Origin: Pelagibacterales bacterium SAG-MED11
GTDB taxonomy: Bacteria > Pseudomonadota > Alphaproteobacteria > Pelagibacterales > Pelagibacteraceae
Reading direction: 5' to 3'
DNA length: 64,000 bases
Assembly (NCBI GenBank): GCA_014654265.1
Contig: JACWDI010000002.1
Span: forward strand, 1-64,000
Below the pieces are notes generated by a model. The model had not been told where the DNA came from. It saw nothing but the letters and a program-made list of their open reading frames with translations, and did no database searches. The position numbers and the translations under genes are program-made. How positions within the stretch are numbered: the first letter of the stretch is position 1; every line of letters starts with the position of its first letter. Of the stretch, positions 8,855 through 58,587 are shown piece by piece.

Positions 8855-8866
8855 GTAGCGATCTTA

Positions 8867-9721: not shown

Positions 9722-9725
9722 TCTT

Positions 9726-10979
9726 TTATCCTAATTTAATATTATCTATTCCAACTAATTTATTATACACCCAGTAAATCGCTAAAACTCCAGTCAATAA
9801 CATTAAACCCATTGCTGATGCAAAACTCCAATCAAGCGTACTCTTCATATGAAATGCAATTTGATTACTGATTAAAGTACCAGAGGCTCCTCCAACTAAG
9901 GCTGGGGTTATATAATAACCTATAGCTAATATGAAAACTAATAAACAACCAGCTCCAATTCCTGGAATAGTTAATGGAAAATAAACTTTCCAAAAAGCTA
10001 CAAAAGGTGTGCCACCTAATGATTTTCCAGCTCTCATCAAGCTTGGGGAGATAGTTTTCATCACGCTATAAAGTGGCAAAACCATAAAAGGTAACAAAAT
10101 CTGTGTCATCGCAACATAGCTACCTGTTTTATTGAACATCATTTCAGGCCTATTATCATCGGCCACTAATCCTATGCCAACAAAGAAATCATTAACCAAA
10201 CCCTGTTGTTGCAACAAAATCATCCAACTAGCAGTTCTTACAAGTAATGATGTCCAAAATGGAAGAAGTACACAGATCATTAAAAGGTTACTATACTTCA
10301 TAGGTAAAGTAGCTAACAAATGAGCAATTGGGTATGCCATTAAAAAACAAAATAATGTAACAAAAAATGCAATTTCTAAAGTTCTTAGCCATAGAACTCT
10401 ATGGATTCGTCTATCTTCAGGAACATTTACTATTTCTCCATTCTCATTTTTAAACATGTCTATACCCTTTAGATATTTCTGACCAGTATATGCTGGAGCT
10501 CTTCTTTTAATTGCTTGCCAATATTCAACATTAGCCCATCTTTTGTGAACAGCCATTATTTGTTCTTTGTAGTTTCCTTCTTCGAAAGATTTAGATTTTC
10601 TCCTTAATTTTTTAATAATACTTTTAAATCCATTCTTTGTATAATTTAGTTGTGTAGATAATTTTCCCTCACGTTTTTCTTCTACTAATTTTATAAAATC
10701 TGAATGAAAAGCTGCAAAAACTTCTTCCTCTGGTAATTCTTTACCATCCCATTTTTCCATTGCTTTAAAAGTTTTGGGAAGCATTTCAGTGACCATCTTA
10801 TCATCCACACTTCTCATAAGCATGTCTCCAATGGGAAAAACATAAGTGATAATAATAAATAATAGCAAAGGTGCTACAAGTAGGAAGGCTTTAATCTTAT
10901 TTCTTCTTTCAGCTTTTTTAAGACTTACCTCTAAAGGAATTCCATCGGTTGTTAAAATTTGTTTTGTTTCTGAGCTCAT
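9726..10979 (-). CDS. ABC transporter permease, PotB-like, with a large N-terminal insert
   Basis: A 417-residue permease partner of the PotC-like protein, considerably longer than classic PotB (about 275-285). The first membrane helix is at about residues 28-50. A soluble, highly charged segment of about 140 residues (about 55-190, including KLRRKSKSFEEGNYKEQ) then precedes the usual permease core. The coupling loop is MRAGKSLGGTPFVAFWKVYFPLTIPG. The insert should face the periplasm if the first helix is oriented as in PotB. A hairpin terminator lies just upstream, between this gene and the SBP gene. Confidence 0.87.
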   Translation of the reverse strand: MSSETKQILTTDGIPLEVSLKKAERRNKIKAFLLVAPLLLFIIITYVFPIGDMLMRSVDDKMVTEMLPKTFKAMEKWDGKELPEEEVFAAFHSDFIKLVEEKREGKLSTQLNYTKNGFKSIIKKLRRKSKSFEEGNYKEQIMAVHKRWANVEYWQAIKRRAPAYTGQKYLKGIDMFKNENGEIVNVPEDRRIHRVLWLRTLEIAFFVTLFCFLMAYPIAHLLATLPMKYSNLLMICVLLPFWTSLLVRTASWMILLQQQGLVNDFFVGIGLVADDNRPEMMFNKTGSYVAMTQILLPFMVLPLYSVMKTISPSLMRAGKSLGGTPFVAFWKVYFPLTIPGIGAGCLLVFILAIGYYITPALVGGASGTLISNQIAFHMKSTLDWSFASAMGLMLLTGVLAIYWVYNKLVGIDNIKLG

Positions 10980-10986
10980 AAATAAA

Positions 10987-11013
10987 AAGGGCGGTTATCA
11001 AATAACCGCCCTT
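10987..11013 (-). terminator. strong hairpin between the SBP and permease genes
   Basis: A perfect 12-bp inverted repeat with a 3-nt loop (AAGGGCGGTTAT / ATAACCGCCCTT), followed on the minus strand by TTTTTATT. It matches an intrinsic terminator placed after the SBP stop and before the permease start. Partial readthrough would give much SBP and little permease, a common arrangement for binding-protein transporters. Confidence 0.85.
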
Positions 11014-11050
11014 AAATTATAATATATAATTAAGTTTAATAAAACTTAAA

Positions 11051-12172
11051 TTATAGACCAGCTTTCATAGCTTCCCATTTTTCACCAAGCTCTGTACCGT
11101 TGTCAGCCCAGTAAAGTGGATCTACTAAGAAGTAGTTTTTAGTGTTAGCTGGTGCAGTTGGCATTTGTGGTACCATATTAGTTTTACCATCTTTATACCA
11201 CGGCTCTCCTGCTTCCATAATAGCTATAGAAGATTTTCTCCAAGGAGCGTATGCAATATATTTTGCACTTCCTGCTAACATTTCTGTGCTAGTCATCATA
11301 GCTAAAGCTTTTTTAGCCATACCATTAGCATCGTTTGGTCCACCCTTAACTTGTACGAAGTACTCGTAGTCAAGACCTTGTCCATCCCATACTTGAACTA
11401 GTGGTGCACCTTCTCCAACGATAGCATTGAAGAATCTACCATTCCAACCAGTTGCCATAACAACTTCACCGCTCATTAATAGTTCTGGTGGTTGAGCACC
11501 TGCAGACCAAAATACACATCCACCTTTTGGATCTGTACATAACTCTTTGATCTTGTTCATAGCTCTATCAACACCTTTATCTGTGTTTAAAGCTTTATAG
11601 ATTTTTGCTCCACCTTTTCCTGGTTTAACTCCATCTGCAGCTAAAGCGATCTCTAAGTTTGTTAAAGCGCCTTTGTAGATAGCTCTTTTTCCAGGGAATT
11701 TTTTAGTGTTAAAGAAATCTTTGATAGTCTTTGGAGTACCTTTAACATTATTTTTGTTATAAGCGTAGTTCCAAGAATATAAAATATTTCCTACAGCACA
11801 TTTACTTGGCATTGCAGTAAAGAAATCTTTACTTGCAGGAGTTCCATCTGGTGCAGGTGGGAAGTCTTTGTCAAAATCAAATTCAACAAATAATCCTTCA
11901 TCACATCCATTGATAGTATCCATTGCAAATACGTCGATTATATCCCACGTAATTTTGCCAGCTTCTTTTTGTGCTTTGATCTCAGACAATCCACCTGAAT
12001 AATCAACCCAGTTGATAGTTATACCAAGGGCTTTTCCAGTAGGATCACCATAACCTAACTTTTGAGACTCTGTGTAAGCTCCACCCCAAGACACTGCAGT
12101 TACTGCAAATGCTGAAGTAGTTACAGAGATAGCAAAAGAAATGGCTAGTAATAATTTACTAAGTGTTTTCAT
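11051..12172 (-). CDS. periplasmic substrate-binding protein, PotD/spermidine-putrescine type
   Basis: A 373-residue binding protein of the extracellular solute-binding family 1/PotD type. A signal peptide (residues 1-23, LSKLLLAISFAISVTTSAFA) is followed by VSWGGAYTESQ, the usual first strand of this family. It carries several Trp and Tyr residues and Cys at about residues 89, 124 and 193. It has its own sigma70-like promoter, a GGAGG ribosome site 4 nt before ATG, and a terminator right after the stop, so it is built for higher expression than its neighbours. The ligand is unknown; an ectoine-hydrolase-like gene upstream suggests a compatible solute or diamine. Confidence 0.88.
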   Translation of the reverse strand: MKTLSKLLLAISFAISVTTSAFAVTAVSWGGAYTESQKLGYGDPTGKALGITINWVDYSGGLSEIKAQKEAGKITWDIIDVFAMDTINGCDEGLFVEFDFDKDFPPAPDGTPASKDFFTAMPSKCAVGNILYSWNYAYNKNNVKGTPKTIKDFFNTKKFPGKRAIYKGALTNLEIALAADGVKPGKGGAKIYKALNTDKGVDRAMNKIKELCTDPKGGCVFWSAGAQPPELLMSGEVVMATGWNGRFFNAIVGEGAPLVQVWDGQGLDYEYFVQVKGGPNDANGMAKKALAMMTSTEMLAGSAKYIAYAPWRKSSIAIMEAGEPWYKDGKTNMVPQMPTAPANTKNYFLVDPLYWADNGTELGEKWEAMKAGL

Positions 12173-12207
12173 TTTTCCTCCGTTTAAACGTTTTTTTATA
12201 AAAAGAG

Positions 12208-12236
12208 ATTACAACAAGATCGATAATGAGAGTCAA
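12208..12236 (-). promoter_or_regulatory. sigma70-type promoter of the PotD-like SBP gene
   Basis: On the minus strand, TTGACT (plus 12231-12236) and TGTAAT (plus 12208-12213) are separated by exactly 17 bp, near the consensus boxes. The start point would fall about 30 bp upstream of the SBP ATG, after a GTTTAAAC palindrome. It supports independent transcription of the SBP downstream of the ATPase gene. Confidence 0.6.
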
Positions 12237-12274
12237 CAGCCCTTTTTGTAAGTTATACAAGATGTAATTGGTGT

Positions 12275-13354
12275 TTATTTTGGGTCTAATGCTCTAGCAT
12301 CTTCACTATTCCAACCAATTTTGATTTCATTACCTAATTTAACATCAAGATTAGATGAACTATTTGGTACTTTGAGAATAAATTCAGAATTTCCTAATAA
12401 ATTAATTCTTACTCTAGTATGGTCACCATGATAAATAACTTCTTCAATTTTTCCTTTATGAACATTATCCATCTTGTCACCTGGATTGATTAAAGCTCTC
12501 TCAGGTCTTAAAGATACGGTTGTTTTATCCCCTTTTCCTTTAACAGAAATAGGATTTGCTAATATTTCTGCATTAGCTAACTTCACTTTACATTTTCCAC
12601 CAGAAATATCTGACACTTCTCCAGCAAAAGTATTATTTTCTCCAATAAATTCTGCAACAAATGAATTAACTGGTTTTTCATACAGTTCATCAGGACTTGA
12701 GAGCTGTTGAACTTTACCATCATTGAAAACTGCAATACGATTTGACATTGTAAGAGCTTCACTTTGGTCATGTGTTACATAAACAACAGTTACACCAATA
12801 CTTTCATGAATATGTTTAATTTCATACTGCATACTCTCTCTCAAATTTTTATCTAAAGCACCCAGAGGTTCATCCATTAAAACTAGTTGTGGATCAAATA
12901 CTAGTGACCTCGCTACTGCAACTCTTTGTTGCTGTCCTCCGGACAATTGACCTGGCATTCTCTGAGCAAATCCTTGCAGTGAAACCATTGATAGTGCTTT
13001 ATCAATTTTTTTATCTGCTTCATCTTTAGGAATTTTTCTAACTCTTAAAGGAAATGCTAAATTTTCATAAACTGTCATATGTGGAAACAAAGCATAATTT
13101 TGAAATACCATTCCGATACCTCTTTTATGGGGTGGAATACTTGAAATTGCTTTTCCGTCTAAATAAATTTCACCATGGGTTGGTGTTTCAAATCCAGCCA
13201 ACATCATTAAACAAGTAGTCTTACCAGAACCAGAAGGTCCTAACATAGTAACAAACTCTCCTTCTTCGATATCTAATTGAAGATCTTTTACGACAAGTAT
13301 TTTACCGTCATAACTTTTGTCTACTTTGTCAAATTTTACGAATTCTTTATTCAT
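12275..13354 (-). CDS. ABC transporter ATPase, PotA-like
   Basis: A 359-residue ATPase that energises the adjacent permeases. It has Walker A GPSGSGKTT, Q-loop VFQNYALFPHMT, signature LSGGQQQRVAVARSL, Walker B LVLMDEPLGALD and the H-loop VTHDQSEAL. About 120 C-terminal residues form a TOBE-type regulatory domain (SLRPERALINPGD), as in PotA/UgpC/FbpC. It lies between the M24 gene and the SBP on the same strand. The family is broad, so PotA is structural shorthand and not a claim that polyamines are the substrate. Confidence 0.9.
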   Translation of the reverse strand: MNKEFVKFDKVDKSYDGKILVVKDLQLDIEEGEFVTMLGPSGSGKTTCLMMLAGFETPTHGEIYLDGKAISSIPPHKRGIGMVFQNYALFPHMTVYENLAFPLRVRKIPKDEADKKIDKALSMVSLQGFAQRMPGQLSGGQQQRVAVARSLVFDPQLVLMDEPLGALDKNLRESMQYEIKHIHESIGVTVVYVTHDQSEALTMSNRIAVFNDGKVQQLSSPDELYEKPVNSFVAEFIGENNTFAGEVSDISGGKCKVKLANAEILANPISVKGKGDKTTVSLRPERALINPGDKMDNVHKGKIEEVIYHGDHTRVRINLLGNSEFILKVPNSSSNLDVKLGNEIKIGWNSEDARALDPK

Positions 13355-13410
13355 TGAAATTAAATTATGAATTTAAAACATTTGTAAGTGTAAATATCAA
13401 CCCCTAATAA

Positions 13411-14580
13411 CTAGCTTTTCACATGAAGTTCTTTAGAAAAATTACAAAATAATTCATAACCCTTATCAGTAACTCTAATTGCTTCAGATGCTTCAACTCC
13501 CCAATTCCCAAATTGCATCACTGCAATCATATGAAAAGTAACATTAGGTTGTAAAACCGTCATATCACCTTTAGAAATATTTAAAGTATGCTCGCCCCAA
13601 TCAGGTGGATATCCTATACCAATGGAATATCCAGTTCTTGAAGTTTTTTCTATTCCATATTTATCTAACACTTTCCAAAAAGCTTGAGCAACATCATCAG
13701 CAGTATTTCCTACTTTAACTAGATCTATTCCTGCTTGAAGCGCTTCATTAGTCTTCTTCATAGTATCAATTTTTTTTTGGTCTGGTTTTCCTAGTAGAAC
13801 TGTACGAGCCATAGGACAGTGATATTTTTTATTAACACCTGATAATTCAATAATCGTAGCTTCTCCTTCAACAAATTTATCTTCTGACCACGTTAGATGT
13901 GAAGCAGATGTACCTTTTCCAGTTGGTATCATTGGAACTATTGATGAATAGTCTCCTCCAAAATCAGGAGTTCCTTTTATTAATGTAGTATAGATTTCTG
14001 AAACTGCATCGCATTGTCTTACTCCTGGATTAATAACTTCAAAAGCCTTTTTCATTCCTAGTTGAGAAATTTGAGATGCAGCTTTCATAAACTTTATTTC
14101 TGCATCAGATTTTACAACTCTAACCCAATTTACTAACCGCTCACAATCCAAAATTTTTGCATTTGGTAAACCTTGTTTAATTTTCTCGTAACAATAAGCA
14201 GTGAAATAATGACTATCCATTTCTAGTCCTACTGAGAGTTTGTCCCACTTTCTTTCTTTAATAAGATCTACTAAAGCGTCGTAAGGGTGTAACGGCCATG
14301 TATGTATATATTTTTCATGATACTTAATTATATTTTCATCTTTTAGATAGGTTTTTATATATGCGCCTCCCGCATCTTGATTTCTAACAAAACAAATTGG
14401 TTCATCGGCGTTTATATGTACCATTACACATTGAGCATAATAAAATGACCAAGCATCATAACCTGTTAAATAATTCATATTAGATGGATCTTGTGAGATT
14501 AAAAGTTCAATACCTTTTTTCTGCATTGAAGCTTGGACTTTTTTTAATCTTGATTTGTATTCTTCACTAGTAAAATTCAT
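13411..14580 (-). CDS. doeA: M24-family hydrolase, probable ectoine hydrolase (DoeA/EutD-like)
   Basis: A 389-residue protein with the creatinase N-domain (about 1-130) and pita-bread M24 catalytic domain (about 160-380). The metal ligands of true aminopeptidases are not conserved: the usual Asp-x-Gly start is IIELSGVNKKYH, and the second Asp position reads CPMART. Ectoine hydrolases share this metal-free pattern; Glu245 lines up, as I recall it, with the nucleophilic Glu described for EutD. Ring opening of ectoine would give N-acetyl-diaminobutyrate. It lies 3 bp from an EutA-like gene, a known eut/doe pairing. Creatinase-like or proline-dipeptidase-like activity remains possible; no DoeB deacetylase is seen here. 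Confidence 0.62.
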   Translation of the reverse strand: MNFTSEEYKSRLKKVQASMQKKGIELLISQDPSNMNYLTGYDAWSFYYAQCVMVHINADEPICFVRNQDAGGAYIKTYLKDENIIKYHEKYIHTWPLHPYDALVDLIKERKWDKLSVGLEMDSHYFTAYCYEKIKQGLPNAKILDCERLVNWVRVVKSDAEIKFMKAASQISQLGMKKAFEVINPGVRQCDAVSEIYTTLIKGTPDFGGDYSSIVPMIPTGKGTSASHLTWSEDKFVEGEATIIELSGVNKKYHCPMARTVLLGKPDQKKIDTMKKTNEALQAGIDLVKVGNTADDVAQAFWKVLDKYGIEKTSRTGYSIGIGYPPDWGEHTLNISKGDMTVLQPNVTFHMIAVMQFGNWGVEASEAIRVTDKGYELFCNFSKELHVKS

Positions 14581-14583
14581 AAT

Positions 14584-15327
14584 CTAATTATTAAATAATT
14601 CACCGTAGCCTTCAATTTTACTTTTAAAATCAATCTGGTTGAGTGTATCCCAAATTAAAGTTTGATTGCTAGATAAAACTATTTTATTCATTTTTTTTTC
14701 TAGATCTTTAATAATTGATAATACAGGTAACGCAGTACAAGAAACAAACAATGCATCACTATTTAACAAATCTATTTTACTTAAAACATCAAATAAATGA
14801 TCTGGATTAACTTTTCCTATATCTAAATCTGAGGCTATATCAAAATAAGTTAGTCCAGTAATTTCTATATTTTCTTTTTTAAAATAATTGATTACTGACT
14901 GATTTATTTCATCTGTATAAGGTGTGAATATAGATAATTTATTTATCTTAAGTGCTTTTAATGCATTAATTGCAGATGTAATTGGTGTTGTAACTTTTGT
15001 ATTTGGTTTTGTTGAATTAACTTTTTCATAAATAGATGAATATCCTGCAGCAATTGTTCCTGAAGTACATCCATATGCTATACAATCAATTTTTTGACCA
15101 GGTAAGATATTCTTTACAACTTTAGGAATATCATCTGCCATTTTTTTTAATGTTTCGTTTGTTAAGGGATTATAACTTTGAATTCTGTTACAAAATAAGT
15201 CTATGTCTTTACCATAAATTATATTGTTAAAATCTTTTTCAATTCTAAAGTCACTTGCTAAGGTAATTAATCCTATCCTTGGGTTATGTTTTTCAATAAA
15301 TTTTGGTTCTATTTTAGTTAGTTTCAT
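14584..15327 (-). CDS. eutA: Asp/Glu racemase-superfamily protein, EutA-like
   Basis: A 247-residue member of the Asp/Glu racemase/maleate isomerase/arylmalonate decarboxylase superfamily. The two catalytic-type cysteines are present at matching places in the two half-domains: AYGCTSGTIAAG near residue 87 and VSCTALPV near residue 197. IFTPYTDEINQ and the ITSAINALKAL helix also fit. EutA proteins of this superfamily occur in ectoine-utilisation clusters next to the M24 hydrolase EutD, as here (3-bp gap). The exact reaction of EutA is uncertain, and maleate isomerase is an alternative name. It heads the minus-strand run, divergent from the monooxygenase gene. Confidence 0.62.
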   Translation of the reverse strand: MKLTKIEPKFIEKHNPRIGLITLASDFRIEKDFNNIIYGKDIDLFCNRIQSYNPLTNETLKKMADDIPKVVKNILPGQKIDCIAYGCTSGTIAAGYSSIYEKVNSTKPNTKVTTPITSAINALKALKINKLSIFTPYTDEINQSVINYFKKENIEITGLTYFDIASDLDIGKVNPDHLFDVLSKIDLLNSDALFVSCTALPVLSIIKDLEKKMNKIVLSSNQTLIWDTLNQIDFKSKIEGYGELFNN

Positions 15328-15467
15328 TTAATTGCTGATTAAATATATATTGATTAAATAGTCTAGTTAAATTACAGTCTTAGTTGAGCGATACATAACT
15401 CGTCGATATTTACAAAATACGAAAGTGGGATCGATCGTCTTAGATTTAATTATTTAAGGAGGTTCGA

Positions 15468-16634
15468 ATGAAATTTGGATATTTTTGCAACACCACAAAT
15501 TGGAATCACAAACCATATAATCAACTACTTAATGAAACCAAAGAGATCACAACTTTTTGTGATGAAAATAATTGGGACTCAATTTGGTATACTGAGCATC
15601 ATTTTAATCATGAAGGAATGGAGTCTTGTACAAATCCTTTAATGATGGGTGTTGATGCAGCAGCTAGAACTAAACAAATAAGAATTGGACAAGCATGCAA
15701 TGTCATTACATTTCATAATCCAATCAGATTAGCAGAAGACATAGCCTTGTTAGATCAATTATCAGGTGGCAGAGTTGATGTTGGTATTGGTAGAGGAATC
15801 TATGGAAGAGAAGCAATAAATATGAATAAAGAAGCTGATCTTAAAGACCAGGCTAAAAATTTCAGACTATTCGAAGAATCTTTAACAATTATGAAAAAAG
15901 CTTGGACAGAAGAGTTTTTTAGTCACCAAGGTGAATTTTATACTTATCCCTCACCAAATTTTGTTTGGCAACATGATATGAGTCCGCCAAGTGAAAAGTT
16001 TTTAGATACAAAAACAAATGAAATAAAAAAAATAAGTATCGTTCCTAAACCAAAACAATCACCGCATCCTCCTATTTGGCAAGTTGTTGATGGCGCTAGA
16101 TCAATTGAGTGGGCTGCACAGAATGGTTTAAATACAATTATGTGGATACCAACTGTTAAAGCTTTAAAGAAAAGATTTGAAATTTATAGAGATGCAAAAT
16201 CAAAGGCTGAAAATAGAGATGTTCCATTAGGAGAAGGTATATCTTTAGTAAGAGATATGTTTGTTGCTGAAACTATGGAAGAAGCAGAAAAAATGGCTGG
16301 TGAACACATCATTAATTATATGAAATGGGTTTGTCATTGGAGAGGCTTAGGAAATCACATGGATCCTGGCGAAGAACTTCCTGAGACAAAACATAAATTG
16401 GATTTACTAAACTATGATTTTCTTCATAAAAGAAATTTATTATTTGGTACTCCTGAGTATGTTGTTAATAAAATTAACGAATTAAAATCTGAATTAAATT
16501 TACAAAATCTACAAGTTTGGTCAAACTTCCCCGGTATAGATCATAAAGCTTGCATGAGAAGCATTAAATTATTTAATGACGAGGTAATTCCAAAAATTAA
16601 TTTAGACTCTTCTAATATAGAAAAAGCAAGTTAA
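15468..16634 (+). CDS. luciferase-like flavin-dependent monooxygenase (LLM class)
   Basis: A 388-residue bacterial-luciferase-fold oxygenase using reduced FMN from a separate reductase (none in the window). Typical features are NWDSIWYTEHHFNHEG (the EHH motif), IRIGQACNVITFHNPIRLAEDIALLDQLSGGR and GIGRGIYGRE. It has an unusually good ribosome site for this genome: AAGGAGG at 15456-15462, 5 nt before ATG. It overlaps the AA_synth gene by 1 bp and heads a plus-strand cluster. RutA, which opens the uracil ring, belongs to the same class, and an alpha/beta hydrolase follows, but the Rut partners RutB, RutC and RutF are absent. Confidence 0.87.
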   Translation: MKFGYFCNTTNWNHKPYNQLLNETKEITTFCDENNWDSIWYTEHHFNHEGMESCTNPLMMGVDAAARTKQIRIGQACNVITFHNPIRLAEDIALLDQLSGGRVDVGIGRGIYGREAINMNKEADLKDQAKNFRLFEESLTIMKKAWTEEFFSHQGEFYTYPSPNFVWQHDMSPPSEKFLDTKTNEIKKISIVPKPKQSPHPPIWQVVDGARSIEWAAQNGLNTIMWIPTVKALKKRFEIYRDAKSKAENRDVPLGEGISLVRDMFVAETMEEAEKMAGEHIINYMKWVCHWRGLGNHMDPGEELPETKHKLDLLNYDFLHKRNLLFGTPEYVVNKINELKSELNLQNLQVWSNFPGIDHKACMRSIKLFNDEVIPKINLDSSNIEKAS

Positions 16635-17221
16635 TGGATTTAGAACTTAGAAAGTTTGCAAAGTTTGTTGATAAAACTTTCATTGAAGGTGGAAAGAAAG
16701 CTAAAGAACCAGTCTTATTAGTATCAGTAGCTGCTGTATTCAAAAATCCTTGGGCTGGAAAAGGTTTTGTCGAAGATTTAAAACCAATCATTTTAGATTT
16801 GGCTCCAAAACTTGGTGATATTTTAGTTCCGGAATTAATAAAAGAAATTGGATCACCAGAAAAAATTTTAGCTTATGGTAAAGCAGGAACTGTTGGCTTA
16901 AACGGTGAAATTGAACATGCATCAGCATTCATTCATACCTTAAGATTTGGAAATAAATTTAGAGATGCTGTTGGTGGAACATCTTATTTAAGTTTTACAA
17001 ACACCAGAGGTCCTGCAGGCTCTAAAATATCTATACCAATGATGCATAAAACCGACTCAGGTTTAAGACCTTATTATTTAACTCATGAGTTTACAATTCA
17101 CGATGCACCATTTGATGATGAAATAGTAATTGCAATTGGAGGTGCTTCAAGTGGTAGAGCACATGCTAGAACTGGAGATCGTTATCAAGATATGAAAGAA
17201 ATGGGTTTAGATCCAAAATAA
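16634..17221 (+). CDS. amino acid synthesis family protein (DUF1185/AA_synth)
   Basis: A 195-residue protein of the AA_synth/DUF1185 family, named for gene neighbourhoods rather than known chemistry. I recognise the family from HASAFIHTLRFGNKFRDAVGGTSYLSFTNTR-type blocks, the SKISIPMMHK core and the end ARTGDRYQDMKEMG. It has no signal peptide and should be cytoplasmic. It sits between a flavin monooxygenase (1-bp overlap) and an alpha/beta hydrolase (4-bp gap), so it probably carries out or assists a step between oxygenation and hydrolysis. That role is inference. Confidence 0.75.
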   Translation: MDLELRKFAKFVDKTFIEGGKKAKEPVLLVSVAAVFKNPWAGKGFVEDLKPIILDLAPKLGDILVPELIKEIGSPEKILAYGKAGTVGLNGEIEHASAFIHTLRFGNKFRDAVGGTSYLSFTNTRGPAGSKISIPMMHKTDSGLRPYYLTHEFTIHDAPFDDEIVIAIGGASSGRAHARTGDRYQDMKEMGLDPK

Positions 17222-17225
17222 TTCA

Positions 17226-18008
17226 ATGTCTGATAATTTTGATTCAAATCAAAATCACTATTTTTTTTTAAAAAAAAATACAACTCCGTTAGTTTTTATT
17301 CATGGAGTTGGCCTTGATCATCAAATGTGGCAATCACAAATTAGTAAATTAAATGAATTTTCTATAATTACATATGATTTATTGGGTCATGGAAAAACAC
17401 CTTGCAAAAAAGAAGAGTTAACTCTCAATGATTTTACGAAACAACTTGATGAAATACTAAATAATCTTCAAGTAGATAAGATTAATCTTATTGGGTTTTC
17501 TCTTGGATCTCTAATAGCCTTAGACTTTACCTCAAATTACCAAGATAAAGTTAATAAGCTTATATTAATCGGGACAACTTATAAAAGATCTGAAGCTGAA
17601 AGAGCACTAGTTTTAGATAGATATAACCAAGCTAAACTAAATAAACCAATATCAAAACAAGCACTAAAAAGATGGTTTAGCGATAATTATCTAGAAAACA
17701 ATCCTTCGACTTACGATTTGTTTATGAAAATACTAACTAAAGAACCTGAGGCTCATAAAAACTTTCTTAAAGCTTATGAATTATTTGCTAATCACAACGA
17801 TAATTCATTAATAATCAAGAATATTACTTCAAAGACTTTAATTATGACTGGATCTAATGACCCTGGATCGACTCCAAAAATGTCTCAAGAATTAGCTAAA
17901 GACCTACCTAATTCAATTTTTATTGAAATTAAAAATGGAAAACATCTTTGTAGTATAGAGTGTGCAGATGATGTTAATATGAATATCAAGAATTTTATTA
18001 ATAATTAA
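17226..18008 (+). CDS. alpha/beta-fold hydrolase (RutD/enol-lactonase-like)
   Basis: A 260-residue cytoplasmic serine hydrolase. Features are the oxyanion region FIHGVGLDHQMW, the nucleophile elbow GFSLGS, the acid in MTGSNDPGSTP and the catalytic His in NGKHLCSIE. The size and layout resemble RutD and 3-oxoadipate enol-lactonase PcaD. It is 4 bp after the AA_synth gene and overlaps the aldehyde dehydrogenase by 1 bp. It probably hydrolyses an ester, lactone or carbamate made by the monooxygenase; this is inferred from order alone. Confidence 0.83.
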   Translation: MSDNFDSNQNHYFFLKKNTTPLVFIHGVGLDHQMWQSQISKLNEFSIITYDLLGHGKTPCKKEELTLNDFTKQLDEILNNLQVDKINLIGFSLGSLIALDFTSNYQDKVNKLILIGTTYKRSEAERALVLDRYNQAKLNKPISKQALKRWFSDNYLENNPSTYDLFMKILTKEPEAHKNFLKAYELFANHNDNSLIIKNITSKTLIMTGSNDPGSTPKMSQELAKDLPNSIFIEIKNGKHLCSIECADDVNMNIKNFINN

Positions 18009-19489
18009 TGCCAAAAATTCAAAATTTTAAAATGTATATAAATGGTGAGTGGGTAAACTCCTTATCGGGTAAAAAAATACAAACTCTTAACCCAGAAAAC
18101 AATGAGGTGTGGGCAACAGTTCCTGAAGCTAATGAGAAAGATGTAGATAAAGCTGTTCAATCAGCACAAAATGCTTTTGAAAATAGTTGGTCAATACTTC
18201 ACCCGAGAGATAGAGCAAAATACTTAAGATTAATTGCAGATCAACTAAGAGAAAATGCAGAGTATCTAGGAAAAATAGAAACTATAGATACTGGAAAAAT
18301 TTATAGAGAAACAAAAAACCAGGCTAATTATATTGCAGAATATTATGATTATTTTGCTGGACTGGCTGACAAGGTTGAAGGAACTGTAGTTCCAATTGAT
18401 AAACCTAATATGCAAGTTACTACAACAAGGATACCGATTGGTGTTGTAGCAGCAATTATTCCTTGGAATTCTCAAATGCTATTGACTGCTGTAAAACTTG
18501 CTCCTGCACTTGCTATGGGTAATACAGTAGTAATAAAAGCATCAGAACTTGCCCCTGTAACCCTTTTAGAATTTGCAAAATTAATAGAAAAAACTGGAAT
18601 ACCCAAAGGAGTAATTAATATAATTACCGGATTAGGGGAGCCATGTGGTAAAGCACTAACTACACATAATCTTGTGGAAAGAATTGCATTTACCGGTGGC
18701 CCTGAAACAGCCAAACATATTATAAAAAATTCTGCTGAAAATTTATCACAAGTAAGTTTAGAACTTGGTGGAAAAAGTCCTGTCGTAGTGTTTGATGATG
18801 CTGATCAAGAAAATGCTTTAAATGGAATTACTGCAGGAATATTTGGTGCTAGTGGTCAAAGTTGTATAGCTGGATCAAGACTCTATTTACAATCTAAAAT
18901 TTATAATGAATTTTTAGACAAATTGATAACTAAAGCAAAAAAAATAAAATTAGGCAGACCTATGGAAGAAGATACTCAGATGGGACCTTTAAATAGTTTT
19001 AAACAATTAGAAAATATAGAAAAAAATATTAAGGCAACTACTAAACAAGGTGGAAAAATTAGATGTGGTGGTAAAAGATCCTCTGTTTCAAATAAAGGTT
19101 ATTATTTTCCTGCAACAATTATTGAATGTGAAAATCATAACCTCCCAGTAGCAGAGAATGAATTGTTTGGACCAATATTATCTGTTATGAAATTTCATAA
19201 AGAAGAAGAAGTCATAAAAAAAATGAATGATAACAAATATGGTTTATCATCTGGAGTTTATACGTCTAACTTTGCAAGAGGTCTTAGGGTTTCAAAAGCA
19301 ATAAGAGCAGGGATAGTATTTATAAATACTTATCGACTAATATCTCCAATGGCACCTTTTGGTGGAATTAAAGATAGTGGCTATGGAAAAGAAGCGGGTA
19401 TAGAGTCAATTAAAGAATATACGAGAATTAAAACAACTTGGTATAACTCCTCTGATAAGCCAATGTCCGATCCTTTCACAATGGGTTAA
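18008..19489 (+). CDS. aldehyde dehydrogenase
   Basis: A 493-residue NAD(P)-dependent aldehyde dehydrogenase. It has the cofactor segment IIPWNSQMLL, FTGGPETAKHI, the general-base Glu in SLELGGKSPVVV and the catalytic Cys in ASGQSCIAGSRL. It overlaps the hydrolase gene by 1 bp. In the cluster it would oxidise an aldehyde released after oxygenation and hydrolysis. It is only a general relative of the 2810-4243 aldehyde dehydrogenase, so this is not a recent tandem copy. Confidence 0.9.
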   Translation: MPKIQNFKMYINGEWVNSLSGKKIQTLNPENNEVWATVPEANEKDVDKAVQSAQNAFENSWSILHPRDRAKYLRLIADQLRENAEYLGKIETIDTGKIYRETKNQANYIAEYYDYFAGLADKVEGTVVPIDKPNMQVTTTRIPIGVVAAIIPWNSQMLLTAVKLAPALAMGNTVVIKASELAPVTLLEFAKLIEKTGIPKGVINIITGLGEPCGKALTTHNLVERIAFTGGPETAKHIIKNSAENLSQVSLELGGKSPVVVFDDADQENALNGITAGIFGASGQSCIAGSRLYLQSKIYNEFLDKLITKAKKIKLGRPMEEDTQMGPLNSFKQLENIEKNIKATTKQGGKIRCGGKRSSVSNKGYYFPATIIECENHNLPVAENELFGPILSVMKFHKEEEVIKKMNDNKYGLSSGVYTSNFARGLRVSKAIRAGIVFINTYRLISPMAPFGGIKDSGYGKEAGIESIKEYTRIKTTWYNSSDKPMSDPFTMG

Positions 19490-19493
19490 TTAT

Positions 19494-20351
19494 TTGCCAA
19501 TCAAACATTTATTAATTTTACTCTTTATAATGGCCGCACATGGTAGTGCTTTTCCTGTTGCGAAACTAGCTTTAAATAATTCGGTACCACCAATACTAAT
19601 GGCATCTCTGCGTATGGCATTAGTGTTATTGATTTTAATTCCATTTTGGAAGTTCAAATTACCAGAAAAAAAATATTATAAGTCTTTAATACTCTTTTCG
19701 TTATCTATGGGAGTAATGGTTTATGTATTTATGAACTTATCATTATTTCATTCCTCTATTATTTCCCCAATAATACTAGGATCACAATTAGCAATTCCAT
19801 TTGGTATAATTGCAAGTGCTTTTATACTTAATGAAAATATCAGTAGAAAAAAGTGGATATTAATTTTTACTTCTTTTTTAGGGATTCTAATAATATTTTT
19901 TGATCCAAAACTAGCTGAAAATTTTCTTGGTTTATTATTTGCAAGTTTAATGGCATTATTTTTTGGATTAGCACAAGTTTACTCTAGACAATTAAAAGAT
20001 TTAAGTATCAGTCTAATTAATGCAAGCACAGGTCTTTTTGGTTTTGTTATCTTAATTTTAATTTCATCAATATTAGAAGGTGGGATAATTAAGAATATCA
20101 GACTAATTGAAATAGAGTCTTGGATATTAATTTCATACCAAGCAATTATTGTTTCTTTATGTGCACATCTATTAATGTTCTATTTGTATAAATTTTATAC
20201 AGTAGGTAAAATTTTTCCCTTCTATTCCTTGTTTCCAATCTTTGGTATTTTACTAAGTTTTCTTATATTTGGAGAGGTTCCTTCATTCTTATTTGTAATA
20301 GGGGGCATTATTGTGATTAGTTCTGTAATCTTTCTGCATAAAATAAGTTAA
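19494..20351 (+). CDS. EamA/DMT-family transporter
   Basis: A 285-residue inner-membrane protein of the drug/metabolite transporter superfamily with two EamA halves and about ten helices. It begins MAAHGSAFPVAKLALNN, the first-helix motif, and includes LGSQLAIPFGIIASAFILNE in the first half. The reading frame starts with TTG at 19494, 4 bp after the preceding stop; the next ATG is 12 codons in and would cut the first helix, so I keep TTG. It probably exports or exchanges a metabolite of this cluster. Direction and substrate are unknown. Confidence 0.83.
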   Translation: MPIKHLLILLFIMAAHGSAFPVAKLALNNSVPPILMASLRMALVLLILIPFWKFKLPEKKYYKSLILFSLSMGVMVYVFMNLSLFHSSIISPIILGSQLAIPFGIIASAFILNENISRKKWILIFTSFLGILIIFFDPKLAENFLGLLFASLMALFFGLAQVYSRQLKDLSISLINASTGLFGFVILILISSILEGGIIKNIRLIEIESWILISYQAIIVSLCAHLLMFYLYKFYTVGKIFPFYSLFPIFGILLSFLIFGEVPSFLFVIGGIIVISSVIFLHKIS

Positions 20352-20359
20352 ATAGGTTA

Positions 20360-20388
20360 TTGAAAATTTTTAGAAAATTAGATTTAAT
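20360..20388 (+). promoter_or_regulatory. sigma70-type promoter of the Liv-type SBP gene
   Basis: TTGAAA (20360-20365) and TTTAAT (20383-20388) are separated by 17 bp. They lie just after the EamA stop and about 36 bp before the SBP start, giving the SBP a promoter of its own. The same TTTAAT -10 box and 17-bp spacing occur before the other Liv-type SBP gene. Confidence 0.5.
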
Positions 20389-20400
20389 TTATCTTTTATA

Positions 20401-20414
20401 AATTGTTAACAATT
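20401..20414. promoter_or_regulatory. 14-bp perfect palindrome near the SBP transcription start
   Basis: AATTGTTAACAATT is a perfect palindrome lying about 13 bp after the -10 box and 10 bp before the start codon of the SBP gene. Its position fits a repressor operator or a translation-affecting hairpin. In AT-rich DNA such a palindrome can arise by chance, so the regulatory role is only a suggestion. Confidence 0.35.
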
Positions 20415-20423
20415 AAAAGGAAG

Positions 20424-21608
20424 ATGATGAAAAAACTATTTATTGCTGCTTTTATATTCGTTTCAACTTTTACAACGAATACATTTGCAGATGTTAAGAT
20501 GGGAATTATATTAGGATTTACTGGTCCTATTGAATCTCTTACACCAGCAATGGCTGCCTCTGCTGAGCTTGCTTTCAAAGAAGCTTCAGAATCAGGATCG
20601 CTATTAGGTGGGCAAACTATTTCAGTAGTAAGAGCAGATTCTACTTGTGTGGACTCAGCAGCGGCAACCGCAGCAGCTGAGGGTGTTATTGCGCAAGGTG
20701 TAGCGGCTATTATGGGCGCAGACTGTTCAGGTGTAACTGGAGCAATAGCTTCAAATGTTGCTGTACCAAATGGTGTAGTAATGATTTCACCATCAGCTAC
20801 ATCACCAGGATTAACTACTTTAGATGACAAAGGGTATTTCTTTAGAACTGCTCCGTCTGATGCTAGAGGAGGTCAAATTTTAGCTGATATTACGAAAGAT
20901 AGAAAAGTTAAAAGTGTTGCAATCACTTATACTAACAATGACTATGGAAAAGGTTTGGCAGATGTTTACAAAGCAGCTGTTGAAGCTCATGGTATCAAAG
21001 TAACTACTGTAACTGCTCATGAAGATGGTAAAGCAGATTACTCCTCTGAAGTAGCAACTCTTGCTTCAGCAGGTGGTGATGCAGTAGCTGTAATTGGTTA
21101 CTTAGACCAAGGTGGTAAAGGAATTATCCAAGCCTCACTAGACTCTGGTGCGTTTGATAAATTCATTTTATCTGATGGTATGATCGGTCAGTCTTTAGTT
21201 GATGCATTTGGAAAAGACTTGAAAAAATCTTTTGGTTCAATGCCAGGTTCAACTGGTAAAGGTGCGAGTGTATTCGGTGATGTAGCAAAAGCTGCTGGTA
21301 TCGATAGCTCAGGTCCTTATACTGGTGAATCTTATGATGCTGCTGCTTTAATTATTTTAGCAATGCAAGCAGGTGGTTCAGCTGATAGAGCATCAATCGC
21401 AAAAAATGTGATGGATGTTGCTAATGGTCCTGGAACAAAAATTTATCCCGGTGAACTTAAAAAAGGTTTGGATTTATTAGCAAAAGGTAAAAAAGTTAAC
21501 TACGAAGGTGCAACTGGAGTTACTTTTACTAGTGTCGGTGAAGCTGAAGGTTCTTTCTTAGAACAAGAAATTAAAGGCGGAAAATTTAAAACTAAAAAAC
21601 AAAGATAA
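20424..21608 (+). CDS. Liv-type periplasmic substrate-binding protein
   Basis: A periplasmic binding protein of the branched-chain amino acid (type I, LivJ/LivK) family. A signal peptide (MKKLFIAAFIFVSTFTTNTFA) precedes VKMGIILGFTGPIESLTPAM, the usual first strand and ligand loop. The ORF track begins at a TTG at 20403 inside the promoter region; ATG at 20424 (or 20427), preceded by AAAAGGAAG, is the better start. Mature-protein Cys residues in DSTCVDSAAA and GADCSG may form a disulfide. It faces the LivM-H-F-G genes across a terminator and is the only SBP near them. Its ligand may be the substrate of the upstream monooxygenase cluster. Confidence 0.88.
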   Translation: MMKKLFIAAFIFVSTFTTNTFADVKMGIILGFTGPIESLTPAMAASAELAFKEASESGSLLGGQTISVVRADSTCVDSAAATAAAEGVIAQGVAAIMGADCSGVTGAIASNVAVPNGVVMISPSATSPGLTTLDDKGYFFRTAPSDARGGQILADITKDRKVKSVAITYTNNDYGKGLADVYKAAVEAHGIKVTTVTAHEDGKADYSSEVATLASAGGDAVAVIGYLDQGGKGIIQASLDSGAFDKFILSDGMIGQSLVDAFGKDLKKSFGSMPGSTGKGASVFGDVAKAAGIDSSGPYTGESYDAAALIILAMQAGGSADRASIAKNVMDVANGPGTKIYPGELKKGLDLLAKGKKVNYEGATGVTFTSVGEAEGSFLEQEIKGGKFKTKKQR

Positions 21609-21625
21609 TTAGATCTTAAAATATA

Positions 21626-21660
21626 AACCCCCAGCATTAGTTTGTTGGGGGTTTTTTTTT
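21626..21660 (+). terminator. intrinsic terminator after the Liv-type SBP
   Basis: AACCCCCAGCA and GTTGGGGGTT form a GC-rich stem around a short AT loop, followed by nine or more T. It ends the SBP transcript. The reverse strand also has a T-rich tail (TTTATATTTT), so it may stop the convergent LivM transcript as well. Confidence 0.9.
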
Positions 21661-21734: not shown

Positions 21735-23105
21735 TTATTTTATTTCTATTTTTTCTGGAAGTATACCTTTTGGTCTGTATCTCATAATTAATAATAAGCC
21801 TATTCCCATCATTAAAAACCTAAAGTAAGGAACACTTTCAATTAAATGTTGTTTTAAAAAATGAGTATCAGCTAATCCAGATGTAGTTAGATTAATTACA
21901 AAGAGTGCAATTGGTGCAGCTTCAATCCATAAAAACCAAACTACAAAACCACCTAAAATTGCACCAAAATTATTTCCACTTCCTCCAACAATTACCATTA
22001 CCCAAATTAAAAAAGTATATCGCATTGGTCTGTAGCTTCCAGGGGTAAATAACCCATCTTGGGTTACTAACATTGCTCCGGCAATTCCAACTATAGCTGA
22101 GCCTAAAACAAATATTAGAAGATGTTGCTTAACAACATTTTTACCCATGGCATTTGCTGCCTCTTCATTATCCCTTATCGCTCTCATCATTCGTCCCCAT
22201 GGTGAATAAAGAGCTTTCTGCGTTAATATTAAAAGAATAATTACTACAACTAAAAATAATCCTGAATAACAAAGTTTTACAAAAATTGAAGAACCTTCAA
22301 TGACCAACTGGTTAAGTGCACTTTGTCTTTCTGAAAAATCTTGTATCAAATTTAATTTACTGAAATTAAATTTTTCAACTAAATTTATGAACCAATCTGT
22401 TTGCTGAAGATCTACTTCATATGGTGCTGGGCGCTTCAAGCCTATTACATTTTTAACACCTCTTGTTAACCAGTCTTCATGTTTAATAATTGCTATTACG
22501 ATTTCTGAAATAAGTAGAGTTGCTATTGCTAAGTAATCAGCTCTTAAACCTAAAGCTACTTTACCAATAATAAAGGCTAAACCACCTGCAAATACTGCCC
22601 CTACTATCCATGAAAAAATAATTGGCAATCCAAAACCACCGAGAAAACCTGTTTTAGCAGGATTTACTTCTTCTATTGCTTCAATACCAGGTTCAGAAAC
22701 AAATCTAACAAGAATAATTCCTGTAATAATAATTGTGGCAATTATATAAGTTCTTAGTTTAGATTTATCATATTTTTTTAAAACATATCTAACAGCTAAT
22801 ACTATTCCTATAATTAAGAATAAGCTAAATAAAATATTAGAACCTCCTACACTCCAAGCTTCCTGAACTGGATTAACTGAAATTAAAACTGCTGCTAAAC
22901 CACCTAAAGCTGTATAACCCATTATTCCAAAATTAATTAGACCAGCATAACCCCATTGGATATTAGCACCCATCGTCATGACAGCTGAGATTAAACAAAG
23001 ATTAAATATTGATAAAGCAATATTCCATGACTGAAATATTCCAACAAGTATGATTAATCCCATCATAATGCTGTAAGCAGCAATTACGTTTAAATTTTTT
23101 TTCAT
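21735..23105 (-). CDS. livM: Liv-type ABC permease LivM
   Basis: A 456-residue inner-membrane permease of the LivM family (branched-chain amino acid or amide-type uptake). Family motifs are NIQWGYAGLINFGIMGYTALGG near the N-terminus, LGLRADYLAIATLLISEIV and the coupling loop MMRAIRDNEEAANAMGKN. It is longer than typical LivM because of two hydrophilic loops (about residues 105-150 and 215-270). The start overlaps the livH stop by 4 bp. It is the last large gene of the LivG-F-H-M set. Confidence 0.9.
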   Translation of the reverse strand: MKKNLNVIAAYSIMMGLIILVGIFQSWNIALSIFNLCLISAVMTMGANIQWGYAGLINFGIMGYTALGGLAAVLISVNPVQEAWSVGGSNILFSLFLIIGIVLAVRYVLKKYDKSKLRTYIIATIIITGIILVRFVSEPGIEAIEEVNPAKTGFLGGFGLPIIFSWIVGAVFAGGLAFIIGKVALGLRADYLAIATLLISEIVIAIIKHEDWLTRGVKNVIGLKRPAPYEVDLQQTDWFINLVEKFNFSKLNLIQDFSERQSALNQLVIEGSSIFVKLCYSGLFLVVVIILLILTQKALYSPWGRMMRAIRDNEEAANAMGKNVVKQHLLIFVLGSAIVGIAGAMLVTQDGLFTPGSYRPMRYTFLIWVMVIVGGSGNNFGAILGGFVVWFLWIEAAPIALFVINLTTSGLADTHFLKQHLIESVPYFRFLMMGIGLLLIMRYRPKGILPEKIEIK

Positions 23106-24112
23106 AGTACCTTGCCTTTAAATATTCCAGATGGTCGGTATAACAACACAATTACTAATATTGAAAAAGAAACTGCAAATTTGTAATCAGTTGAAAGTAA
23201 TTGAACTAAACCATCAGGCTCCATACTTTCTGGTAAAACATACATAAAAAATTTCTTATAAGCATATGTCAAAAGTATTTCAGAAAAAGCAATTACATAT
23301 CCTCCTAGAAACGCTCCAAAAGGATTACCAATTCCCCCAACTATTGCTGCAGCAAATATGGGTAGCATATTGTTAAAGTATGTGAATGGTTTAAAGCTTT
23401 TGTCTAAACCATAAAGAGTTCCACCAATAGTTGCCAATATTCCAGCAATTATCCAAGTAATCATAACTATTTTTTTGGGATCTATGCCTGAGAGTAAAGC
23501 TAGATCTTCATTATCCGAATAAGCTTTCATACTTTTTCCAGTCTTAGTTTTATTCAAAAACCAAAAAAGCGTTGAAACTAAAATTAAAGTTACCAGTATA
23601 GTTAATATTTGAGTTGATTTAATTGCAAGACCTTCATTTAATCCTGTAATTTCTTTAAATTCACCTGCTTTAATTATGAATTTCTCGCCATCAAAAAATC
23701 TTCTATCTGAAGGCCCTATAATAATTCTTACTACTGCTTGAGTAACAAACATTACACCTATACTAACCATAGCAAGTTGAACAGGTGGGCTTTTTTGATT
23801 TCTATAGTATTTGAAAACAAATTTATCAATCAATAGCATATAAAAAATCATAAAAATGATTGCAAATGGAATAGCTATAAGTGCTGTTGGTAAAACACCC
23901 AAGGAAACACCCAAGGATTGAAAATACCAAGTAAACAAAATTGCTGCCATAGTTCCGAATGACATCATGTCCCCAGTAGCAAAATTGGCAAATCTTAAAA
24001 TACCATAAATCAATGTCACGAATATTGCACCTAGTGCTAACTGTGAACCATAAGTTAAAGCTGGAACAAATATATAGTTTAGTAAAAGAATAATTGCGTT
24101 TATAAAATCCAT
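23102..24112 (-). CDS. livH: Liv-type ABC permease LivH
   Basis: A 336-residue permease of the LivH family, partner of the LivM above. Typical segments are GAIFVTLIYGILRFANFATGDMMSFG, the coupling loop KAYSDNEDLALLSGIDPKK and AAIVGGIGNPFGAFLGGYVIA. It overlaps livM by 4 bp and abuts livF. The livF-livH-livM order and tight spacing indicate one translocon. Confidence 0.9.
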   Translation of the reverse strand: MDFINAIILLLNYIFVPALTYGSQLALGAIFVTLIYGILRFANFATGDMMSFGTMAAILFTWYFQSLGVSLGVLPTALIAIPFAIIFMIFYMLLIDKFVFKYYRNQKSPPVQLAMVSIGVMFVTQAVVRIIIGPSDRRFFDGEKFIIKAGEFKEITGLNEGLAIKSTQILTILVTLILVSTLFWFLNKTKTGKSMKAYSDNEDLALLSGIDPKKIVMITWIIAGILATIGGTLYGLDKSFKPFTYFNNMLPIFAAAIVGGIGNPFGAFLGGYVIAFSEILLTYAYKKFFMYVLPESMEPDGLVQLLSTDYKFAVSFSILVIVLLYRPSGIFKGKVL

Positions 24113-24820
24113 TTAACCGCCTAAGAATGAGCTTCTTACTCTTGAGTCATTCAATAATTCCTTTCCCGTGCCAGAATAACGATTCTCTCCAGTTACTAGC
24201 ACGTATCCTCTATCAGAAATGCTTAACGCTTGTTTGGCATTTTGTTCAACCATAAGAATGGCGACATTAGTTTTTTTTACTTTTATTATATGATCAAATA
24301 GCTCATCCATTACTATGGGAGAAACTCCAGCTGTAGGTTCATCTAACATTAATACTGAAGGCTTAATCATCAATGCCCTTCCTAAAGCAACTTGTTGCCT
24401 TTGTCCTCCTGATAACTCTCCAACTAATTGATTTTTTTTTTCTTGTAAAATCGGAAATAAATCAAAAATATCATCTATCAATTTTTTTAAATCTTTATCT
24501 AATAAAAATGCACCCATCTCCAAATTTTCCTCAACAGTCATTCCTGCAAATACATTTTTAGTTTGGGGTACAAATGAAATTCCTTGTTTCACTCGATCTT
24601 GGGGTGACAAGTTTGAAATATCTTTTCCATCTATAGTTATTGTACCTGACTTTAAATTAAGAAGTCCTAACATAGCCTTCATGGCTGTAGATTTTCCTGC
24701 ACCGTTGGGTCCAAGAATAGATACAATTTCTCCCCTATCAACAGTAACAGAACATGAGTGAATAATATCAGGACCATTTCCATAACCACCAGTCATTTTA
24801 TTTCCCTCAAAGAAAGCCAT
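24113..24820 (-). CDS. livF: Liv-type ABC ATPase LivF
   Basis: A 235-residue nucleotide-binding subunit. It has Walker A GPNGAGKST, signature LSGGQRQQVALGRAL, Walker B VLMLDEPTAGVSP and the H-loop VEQNAKQAL. Length and the C-terminal RSSFLGG are typical of LivF. It overlaps the LivG-type gene by 1 bp and works with it as the ATPase pair of the transporter. Confidence 0.92.
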   Translation of the reverse strand: MAFFEGNKMTGGYGNGPDIIHSCSVTVDRGEIVSILGPNGAGKSTAMKAMLGLLNLKSGTITIDGKDISNLSPQDRVKQGISFVPQTKNVFAGMTVEENLEMGAFLLDKDLKKLIDDIFDLFPILQEKKNQLVGELSGGQRQQVALGRALMIKPSVLMLDEPTAGVSPIVMDELFDHIIKVKKTNVAILMVEQNAKQALSISDRGYVLVTGENRYSGTGKELLNDSRVRSSFLGG

Positions 24821-25611
24821 CAGTTTTTATCCTTTAATTTTGATCCTCTGCCTAAATAGCTCTCTATAACCTTTTGATCTTTTTTTGCATTTTCTACAGT
24901 ACCCTCGAATAAAACTGAACCTTCTGCCATAACAATTACTGGATCGCAAAGTCTACCAATAAAATCCATATCATGTTCGATCATACAAAAAGTATAACCC
25001 TTTTCTTGATTCAATTTTTGAATTGCAGTGCCTAAATCTTTAAGCAATGTTCTATTAACTCCAGCACCAACTTCGTCTAATAATACTAATTTTGCATCAA
25101 CCATCATTGTTCTACCAAGCTCTAAGAGCTTTTTTTGACCTCCAGATAGATTTCCAGCAAGTTCATTTGAAAGGTGACTTAAATTTAAAAATTCTACTAC
25201 TTCTTTTGCTTTTTCTTTAATTAAATTTTCTTCTCTTGCAACAAGAGAAGGCTTTAACAAAACATTCGTTAATTTTTCACCAGATTGATTTCCAGGTACC
25301 ATCATTAGATTTTCTAAGACAGATAAATTAGTAAATTCATGTGCAATTTGAAAAGTTCTCAATAAACCTTTAGAAAATAATTCATATGATGGAGTATCAG
25401 TAATATCTTCATTATTAAATTTAACATTTCCTTTAGATGATTTTAAATTTCCAGCTATTAAATTAAATAAAGTTGTTTTACCAGATCCATTCGGACCTAT
25501 GATTCCTGTGATAGTTCCCTTTTTTACTTTTAATGAACAGTCCGATACAGCAGCTAATCCTCCAAAAAATTTTGAAAGATTATTAATTTCTAAAATATTT
25601 TGAGACATCAA
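24820..25611 (-). CDS. livG: Liv-type ABC ATPase LivG
   Basis: A 263-residue ATPase of the LivG type. It has Walker A GPNGSGKTT, the LivG-specific LLRTFQIAHEFTNLSVLENL, signature LSGGQKKLLELGRTM and Walker B LVLLDEVGAGVNR, in which the usual DEP reads DEV. The preferred start may be the second Met (MSQNILEI). It begins directly after the ProC homologue (no gap), so the translocon genes appear to be transcribed from upstream, through proC. Confidence 0.9.
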   Translation of the reverse strand: MMSQNILEINNLSKFFGGLAAVSDCSLKVKKGTITGIIGPNGSGKTTLFNLIAGNLKSSKGNVKFNNEDITDTPSYELFSKGLLRTFQIAHEFTNLSVLENLMMVPGNQSGEKLTNVLLKPSLVAREENLIKEKAKEVVEFLNLSHLSNELAGNLSGGQKKLLELGRTMMVDAKLVLLDEVGAGVNRTLLKDLGTAIQKLNQEKGYTFCMIEHDMDFIGRLCDPVIVMAEGSVLFEGTVENAKKDQKVIESYLGRGSKLKDKN

Positions 25612-58207: not shown

Positions 58208-58215
58208 GATTGTTA

Positions 58216-58243
58216 TTGAATCTCTTGTGATTCCTTTTATATT
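58216..58243 (+). promoter_or_regulatory. candidate tmRNA promoter
   Basis: TTGAAT (58216-58221) and TATATT (58238-58243) are 16 bp apart; TATTAA two bases later is an alternative. The start would fall near 58250, just where a GTTGG-TTTT-CCAAC hairpin begins. Confidence 0.4.
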
Positions 58244-58249
58244 AATAAG

Positions 58250-58510: not shown

Positions 58511-58587
58511 TAAAAAAGTATTTTTGTCGCTGATGATTTTAAAAATTTATTTAGAAAAAATTTACTTTAAGGTATAGGAAATCTTCA

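Follow-up and report, generated by a model that had tools for sequence, protein, structure and literature searches.

The locus and its conserved unit

Which genes of a compact, apparently catabolic gene run belong together, what do they act on and how are they controlled? These questions were raised by a locus of Pelagibacterales bacterium SAG-MED11 (GenBank assembly GCA_014654265.1), a SAR11 genome of 1.10 Mb, within positions 1 to 64,000 of contig JACWDI010000002.1 (64,000 nucleotides, hereafter the window). The conserved unit is four genes, encoding a luciferase-like flavin monooxygenase (LLM), an AA_synth/DUF1185 protein, an alpha/beta hydrolase and an aldehyde dehydrogenase (ALDH). On balance, we favour reading them as a SAR11 variant of the trigonelline (tgn) type of cassette, which would open an N-heterocycle under the control of a putative ON riboswitch. 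The unit and its leader comprise the following features:

15377-15450, plus strand: structured leader RNA element (model R1), 76.6 bits with a covariance model built from the window's near-identical relatives among others
15433-15464, plus strand: alternative hairpin P3, from spacer folding against shuffles
15468-16634, plus strand: LLM of the SAR11-type subfamily (PF00296, 4.6e-45), in a clade apart from TgnB-type LLMs
16634-17221, plus strand: AA_synth/DUF1185 protein of the cassette clade (PF06684, 2.4e-64), 1-base overlap with the LLM gene
17226-18008, plus strand: alpha/beta hydrolase of the PcaD/RutD-like class, fast evolving (PF00561, 2.4e-27), 4-base gap after AA_synth
18008-19489, plus strand: TgnC-related ALDH (PF00171, 2.4e-161), 1-base overlap with the hydrolase gene

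The four genes stay together wherever the contig reaches, both in 20 loci of the same order and in 80 named SAR11 contigs. The block, with a SAR11-type LLM, also occurs in two non-SAR11 alphaproteobacteria, and in one of these (L168) a flavin reductase gene lies directly upstream of it. The AA_synth protein matches PF06684 over its full length (216 bits against a curated cut-off of 27) and has the distant solved relatives 2qtp and 3byq; a single-sequence AlphaFold model was dropped, its mean pLDDT being 35.5. The statement in the original prediction that DUF1185 has no established reaction agrees with a structural paper on the family, which proposes just a role in amino-acid metabolism (PMC2954203).

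Relation to trigonelline-type cassettes

The window AA_synth is 54-60% identical to AA_synth proteins encoded on Rhizobium, Leisingera, Paraburkholderia and other plasmids. There the AA_synth gene sits beside genes for hydrolase, flavin reductase, LLM and ALDH, in one order together with a GntR gene and in a second form arranged differently, while a third form carries RidA and CoA-type genes. In Acinetobacter sp. PK01 (NZ_CP094644.1), three of the cassette genes are annotated tgnA, tgnB and tgnC. The tgn genes, reportedly described by Perchat et al. in 2018, are said to form a trigonelline pathway of C5-C6 ring cleavage, aldehyde oxidation and hydrolysis. The window ALDH is about 50% identical to the ALDH of tgn-annotated cassettes, and its examined top plasmid matches, out of 10,745 ALDH-like places, all lie in AA_synth cassettes; the best plasmid matches of the hydrolase include such cassettes as well. 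In trees, the window AA_synth and ALDH group with the plasmid cassette proteins and the LLM falls elsewhere.

The cluster had been presented as undescribed; the same families make up the trigonelline-type cassette on many plasmids, and, as judged by homology, the SAR11 operon is a variant of this ring-opening cassette. The core genes thus do co-occur elsewhere (plasmids, other alphaproteobacteria), as the proposed survey of DUF1185 neighbourhoods brings out, and the suggested chemistry of oxygenative opening, hydrolysis and aldehyde oxidation fares well, since the closest annotated cassettes are named for such a route. Both types have AA_synth, alpha/beta hydrolase, LLM and TgnC-type ALDH genes as neighbours. 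They differ in that the SAR11 operon has no linked flavin reductase TgnA, succinate-semialdehyde dehydrogenase or GntR regulator, carries a leader RNA in place of the regulator, includes in some copies an additional thiamine diphosphate (ThDP) enzyme, and has an LLM from another clade.

Judged by the distance from leader to AA_synth, the LLM and AA_synth genes are separated by an insert of at least about 1.7 kb in 38 of the 59 measured loci, and in the copies read this insert encodes a ThDP enzyme nearest to sulfoacetaldehyde acetyltransferase, far under the cut-off of that family. It was read directly at L061-L063, L067-L069 and L250, and deduced from the gap between LLM and AA_synth at L051, L052, L059, L060 and L066. 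The window cassette does not contain it, and the window genome's matches to it reach only 29-30%.

The original prediction likened the locus to the Rut uracil pathway. As to enzyme classes the analogy stands, since both have an LLM oxygenase and an alpha/beta hydrolase, and it had already been recognised that RutB, RutC and RutF are missing, with AA_synth and ALDH in their place. As the nearest comparison it gives way to tgn, with which four homologous families are shared; moreover, the window hydrolase resembles PcaD more than RutD, whose cut-off it misses by far, and the LLM matches shown include no RutA model.

A conserved leader RNA

The original prediction overlooked a structured RNA in the 140-base leader ahead of the first gene. 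When loci were compared, two invariant blocks at variable spacing (11 to 40 bases apart) were found in the 160 bases 5' of the LLM start. In the window, helix P1 pairs 15385-15392 with 15434-15442 and helix P2 pairs 15403-15405 with 15420-15422, and the invariant core consists of ACATAACTC at 15393-15401 and AAGTGGGATC at 15423-15432. Covariation was assessed in an alignment of 40 non-redundant leader sequences, in which 8 of the 12 pairs show changes on both sides. The covariation score was 0.216. Shuffles gave 0.148, with 0 of 500 reaching the observed value, and slid structures gave 0.03-0.115. P2 shows compensating changes between two SAR11 families (UA to CG, GC to AU, UA to AU). RNAalifold on a MAFFT alignment recovered P2 and not P1. 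The latter was proposed from inspection and single-sequence folds before being tested by pair counts, which therefore lean somewhat towards it. The distance from core to ATG is 34-41 bases, once 20, and does not run in multiples of three, so that a coding origin of the leader was rejected.

No family of Rfam 15 matched the window leader (best 18.3 bits against a threshold of 50), and none matched in four further loci. Nor does a 2009 survey that looked for structured RNAs in 'Cand. Pelagibacter ubique' HTCC1062 mention one ahead of a monooxygenase or luciferase-like gene (PMC2704228). The leader element is thus a previously uncatalogued conserved two-helix RNA.

The element is tied one-to-one to the operon. 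The block pattern occurs exactly once in each of 100 loci, always before the LLM gene, and the covariance model detects the element in 63 of the 197 genomes from the order. These comprise 60 of the 62 genomes with the cassette (scored by AA_synth), the two exceptions beginning at contig starts, and 3 of the 135 genomes without AA_synth, in which an LLM gene follows and then the contig ends. Presence and absence across related genomes are non-independent events, and the Fisher test of element against AA_synth ignores relatedness; the exact match across two families and with different flanking genes is, however, hard to explain otherwise. One orphan copy, in G024 (L248, 1784-1874, minus strand), lies beside EutA with no LLM gene and with one P1 strand changed, and was probably left behind by relocation of the cassette.

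Outside SAR11, none of 26 loci, mostly cassette loci, carries the element. A class-wide scan of 318 genomes returned the window and one chance-level match only (G464, 24.9 bits), which was rejected as it has neither the GGGATC core nor any cassette gene. In viral contigs, no element was found with a search pattern somewhat narrower than the family.

A predicted hairpin over the ribosome-binding site

In translational ON riboswitches in general, an aptamer helix is mutually exclusive with a hairpin that hides the Shine-Dalgarno site. The window leader can form such a hairpin, P3, by pairing 15438-15445 with 15452-15459 and 15433-15436 with 15461-15464. It covers the Shine-Dalgarno sequence AAGGAGG at 15456-15462, and since its 5' arm is the 3' strand of P1, P1 and P3 are mutually exclusive. 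The unconstrained fold of the window leader contains P3. In all 46 distinct versions, the spacer between core and start codon is more stable than its own shuffles (mean z -3.24, from related and hence non-independent sequences), while 21 further 5' regions from SAR11 that contain a Shine-Dalgarno motif gave a mean z of -0.35. The outer strand of the element is able to pair with the ribosome-binding site in nearly all 46 leaders, and in the subset of sequences computed, the five central Shine-Dalgarno bases are paired with a probability of 0.64-1.0. The mutual exclusion of P1 and P3 in these predicted folds corresponds to the arrangement of a translational ON switch, from which we infer the direction of switching and the binding of a ligand.

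Proposed function

The substrate and the order of reactions we infer from the tgn comparison. The LLM oxygenase would receive reduced flavin from an unlinked reductase and break a C-C bond in a small N-heterocycle. This would most likely be a pyridinium betaine such as homarine or trigonelline, our best guess for substrate and ligand alike. The ALDH would oxidise the resulting aldehyde, the hydrolase would cleave the open-chain enamide, and AA_synth may assist at some step. The leader RNA would stand in for the GntR or helix-turn-helix regulator gene seen beside relatives. At rest, P3 would hide the Shine-Dalgarno site; a ligand, probably the substrate or an early product, would stabilise the two-helix aptamer, P1 would capture the 5' arm of P3, and the opened hairpin would allow translation to begin. 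The more specific proposal of a new riboswitch class, with this leader as its first recognised member, which would sense homarine, trigonelline or a ring-opened product and switch on the operon, is put forward tentatively, as possible rather than probable.

Several observations weigh against this combined reading of a tgn-type operon under an ON riboswitch. On the enzyme side, the SAR11 LLM is only 24-30% identical to TgnB-type LLMs, which form their own clade (support 100/100), the window hydrolase is remote from that of tgn cassettes, and many SAR11 cassettes carry a ThDP enzyme that is not part of tgn. No PF01613 flavin reductase was found in the window genome or the genus; the window genome does encode two FMN_red-type proteins as possible substitutes. 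On the RNA side, P1 is imperfectly kept (82.5% of alignment cells paired), the aptamer by itself has an unremarkable folding energy, and imposing P1 and P2 on the window leader makes it much less stable (-5.7 vs -17.0 kcal/mol). In addition, the spacer at one locus (L150) is shortened and cannot accommodate the long P3.

A substrate unlike the pyridinium betaines, either another heterocycle or a lactone, with the LLM swapped and the same downstream logic, is a substantial possibility that falls only somewhat short of an even chance. It would account for the separate LLM clade and for the extra Xsc-like enzyme of many SAR11 copies, whose absence from tgn means that the substrate may differ. Moreover, 6-hydroxynicotinate reductase and molybdopterin-enzyme genes accompany distant AA_synth genes, so that the AA_synth family spans several ring systems. 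Against this, AA_synth and ALDH remain close to the tgn-type proteins, and genes for betaine-type transport and catabolism turn up repeatedly in the vicinity of cassettes. A betaine substrate would fit the BCCT, ProX and Rieske/choline-type genes found there, as well as the ProV-like ATPase encoded close to some SAR11 copies.

It is unlikely, though conceivable, that the leader RNA is real and bound by a protein, either an unlinked regulator or an operon enzyme such as AA_synth, as an autoregulatory leader. Two-helix elements with conserved internal loops can be protein sites too, the Pelagibacter survey describes three other motifs as likely protein-binding leaders (PMC2704228), and AA_synth accompanies the element wherever the contig extends far enough. 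However, the AA_synth cassettes of relatives have no such element, so that AA_synth does not need it, and both the invariant internal loop with a variable P2, which is aptamer-like, and the exclusion of P1 and P3, a standard riboswitch layout, speak for a riboswitch.

The original prediction had taken the locus as one six-gene unit, with an exporter and a solute-binding protein (SBP) as dedicated substrate importer, which we regard as improbable. The additional features are:

19494-20351, plus strand: EamA-type transporter (PF00892), TTG start, 4-base gap after the ALDH gene
20427-21608, plus strand: Liv-type SBP (PF13458)
21625-21654: terminator-like hairpin after the SBP gene
21735-25611, minus strand: LivMHFG set, convergent to the SBP gene

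The description itself was accurate in that five packed plus-strand genes and the SBP gene are present with the 1-base overlaps and 4-base gaps that it gave, the Pfam names agree, and the SBP gene does face a Liv translocon. Its promoter before the SBP gene found no support, a consensus scan having given fewer promoter-like sites there than in shuffled sequence. In the loci and contigs compared above, EamA is missing, unrelated or replaced in many cases, and its place in the pathway is not supported. The SBP is found in 150 of the 197 genomes of the order, compared with 62 for AA_synth. With presence set at at least 78% identity, it is found in 105 of the 117 same-genus genomes among those listed, that is, in 49/49 with the cassette and in 56/68 without it. 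In 42 of the 49 it lies within 7 kb of the cassette, and since it is so often close, a transport link is possible. However, in 16 full-length named SAR11 loci no SBP gene adjoins the cassette, and the six of these that were read have panB/guaA-type genes at that place. The SBP is thus a frequent neighbour outside the conserved unit.

Least credible of all is that a transcription factor binds the two blocks as a DNA operator and that their pairing is incidental: the primary sequence is strongly conserved and several pairs vary little, yet the variable stretch between the blocks, the compensating changes in P2 and the stable Shine-Dalgarno-pairing hairpin in the spacers all argue against it.

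Neighbouring genes

At two loci (L046, 4226-9585; L214, 16525-23479), gmaS-mgs-like genes of the glutamate-amine ligase/glutamate synthase type adjoin tgn-type cassettes, together with sarcosine-oxidase-like (N-methylglutamate dehydrogenase-like) genes, which is consistent with release of methylamine or N-methylglutamate and would likewise fit a betaine substrate. Co-occurrence of GMAS-like genes was weak and not used (42/49 vs 47/68, p 0.048, with a Fisher test that ignores relatedness; the SAR11 matches are 36-45% identical). At L040 (1519-8585), a distant AA_synth pair (32%) lies next to 6-hydroxynicotinate reductase, molybdopterin-dependent oxidoreductase and UPF0280 genes, hinting at a role of the wider AA_synth family in N-heterocycle catabolism.

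In the window, the divergent neighbours (6632-15327, minus strand) encode a Pot-type ABC transporter, an ectoine hydrolase (DoeA)-like M24 protein, an EutA-like protein and a FadB-like protein, and this set is kept beside the cassette in many SAR11; the DoeA-like and EutA-like proteins are both under the curated cut-offs. PotD of this transporter was rejected as a tgn-linked candidate, since its best plasmid matches were not shown to lie in cassettes. Elsewhere in the window are an rhtB sRNA (RF01814; 35644-35726, minus strand), above the gathering score, and a tmRNA (58212-58512, plus strand).

Implications

Among translational riboswitches, SAM-V of Pelagibacter comes closest by organism and position, being likewise a small RNA in a SAR11 leader close to a start codon (PMC2704228); the window leader RNA differs from it in sequence, fold and gene context. 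Homarine reportedly ranks with the most abundant particulate metabolites in the subtropical gyre, the genetic basis of its turnover then not being known (PMC8269247). The catabolism of this marine N-methylpyridinium betaine is the subject of a paper (Nat Microbiol 2026, cited in PMC13390433), and the route is reported to involve N-methylglutamate dehydrogenase. SAR11 bacteria rank with the most numerous cells of the ocean. The leader RNA offers a handle on the operon, as a ligand that binds the RNA should reveal the operon substrate. If the riboswitch reading is true, ligand-dependent protection is expected at ACAUAACUC and AAGUGGGAUC, and the ligand would give the AA_synth/DUF1185 family a functional setting.

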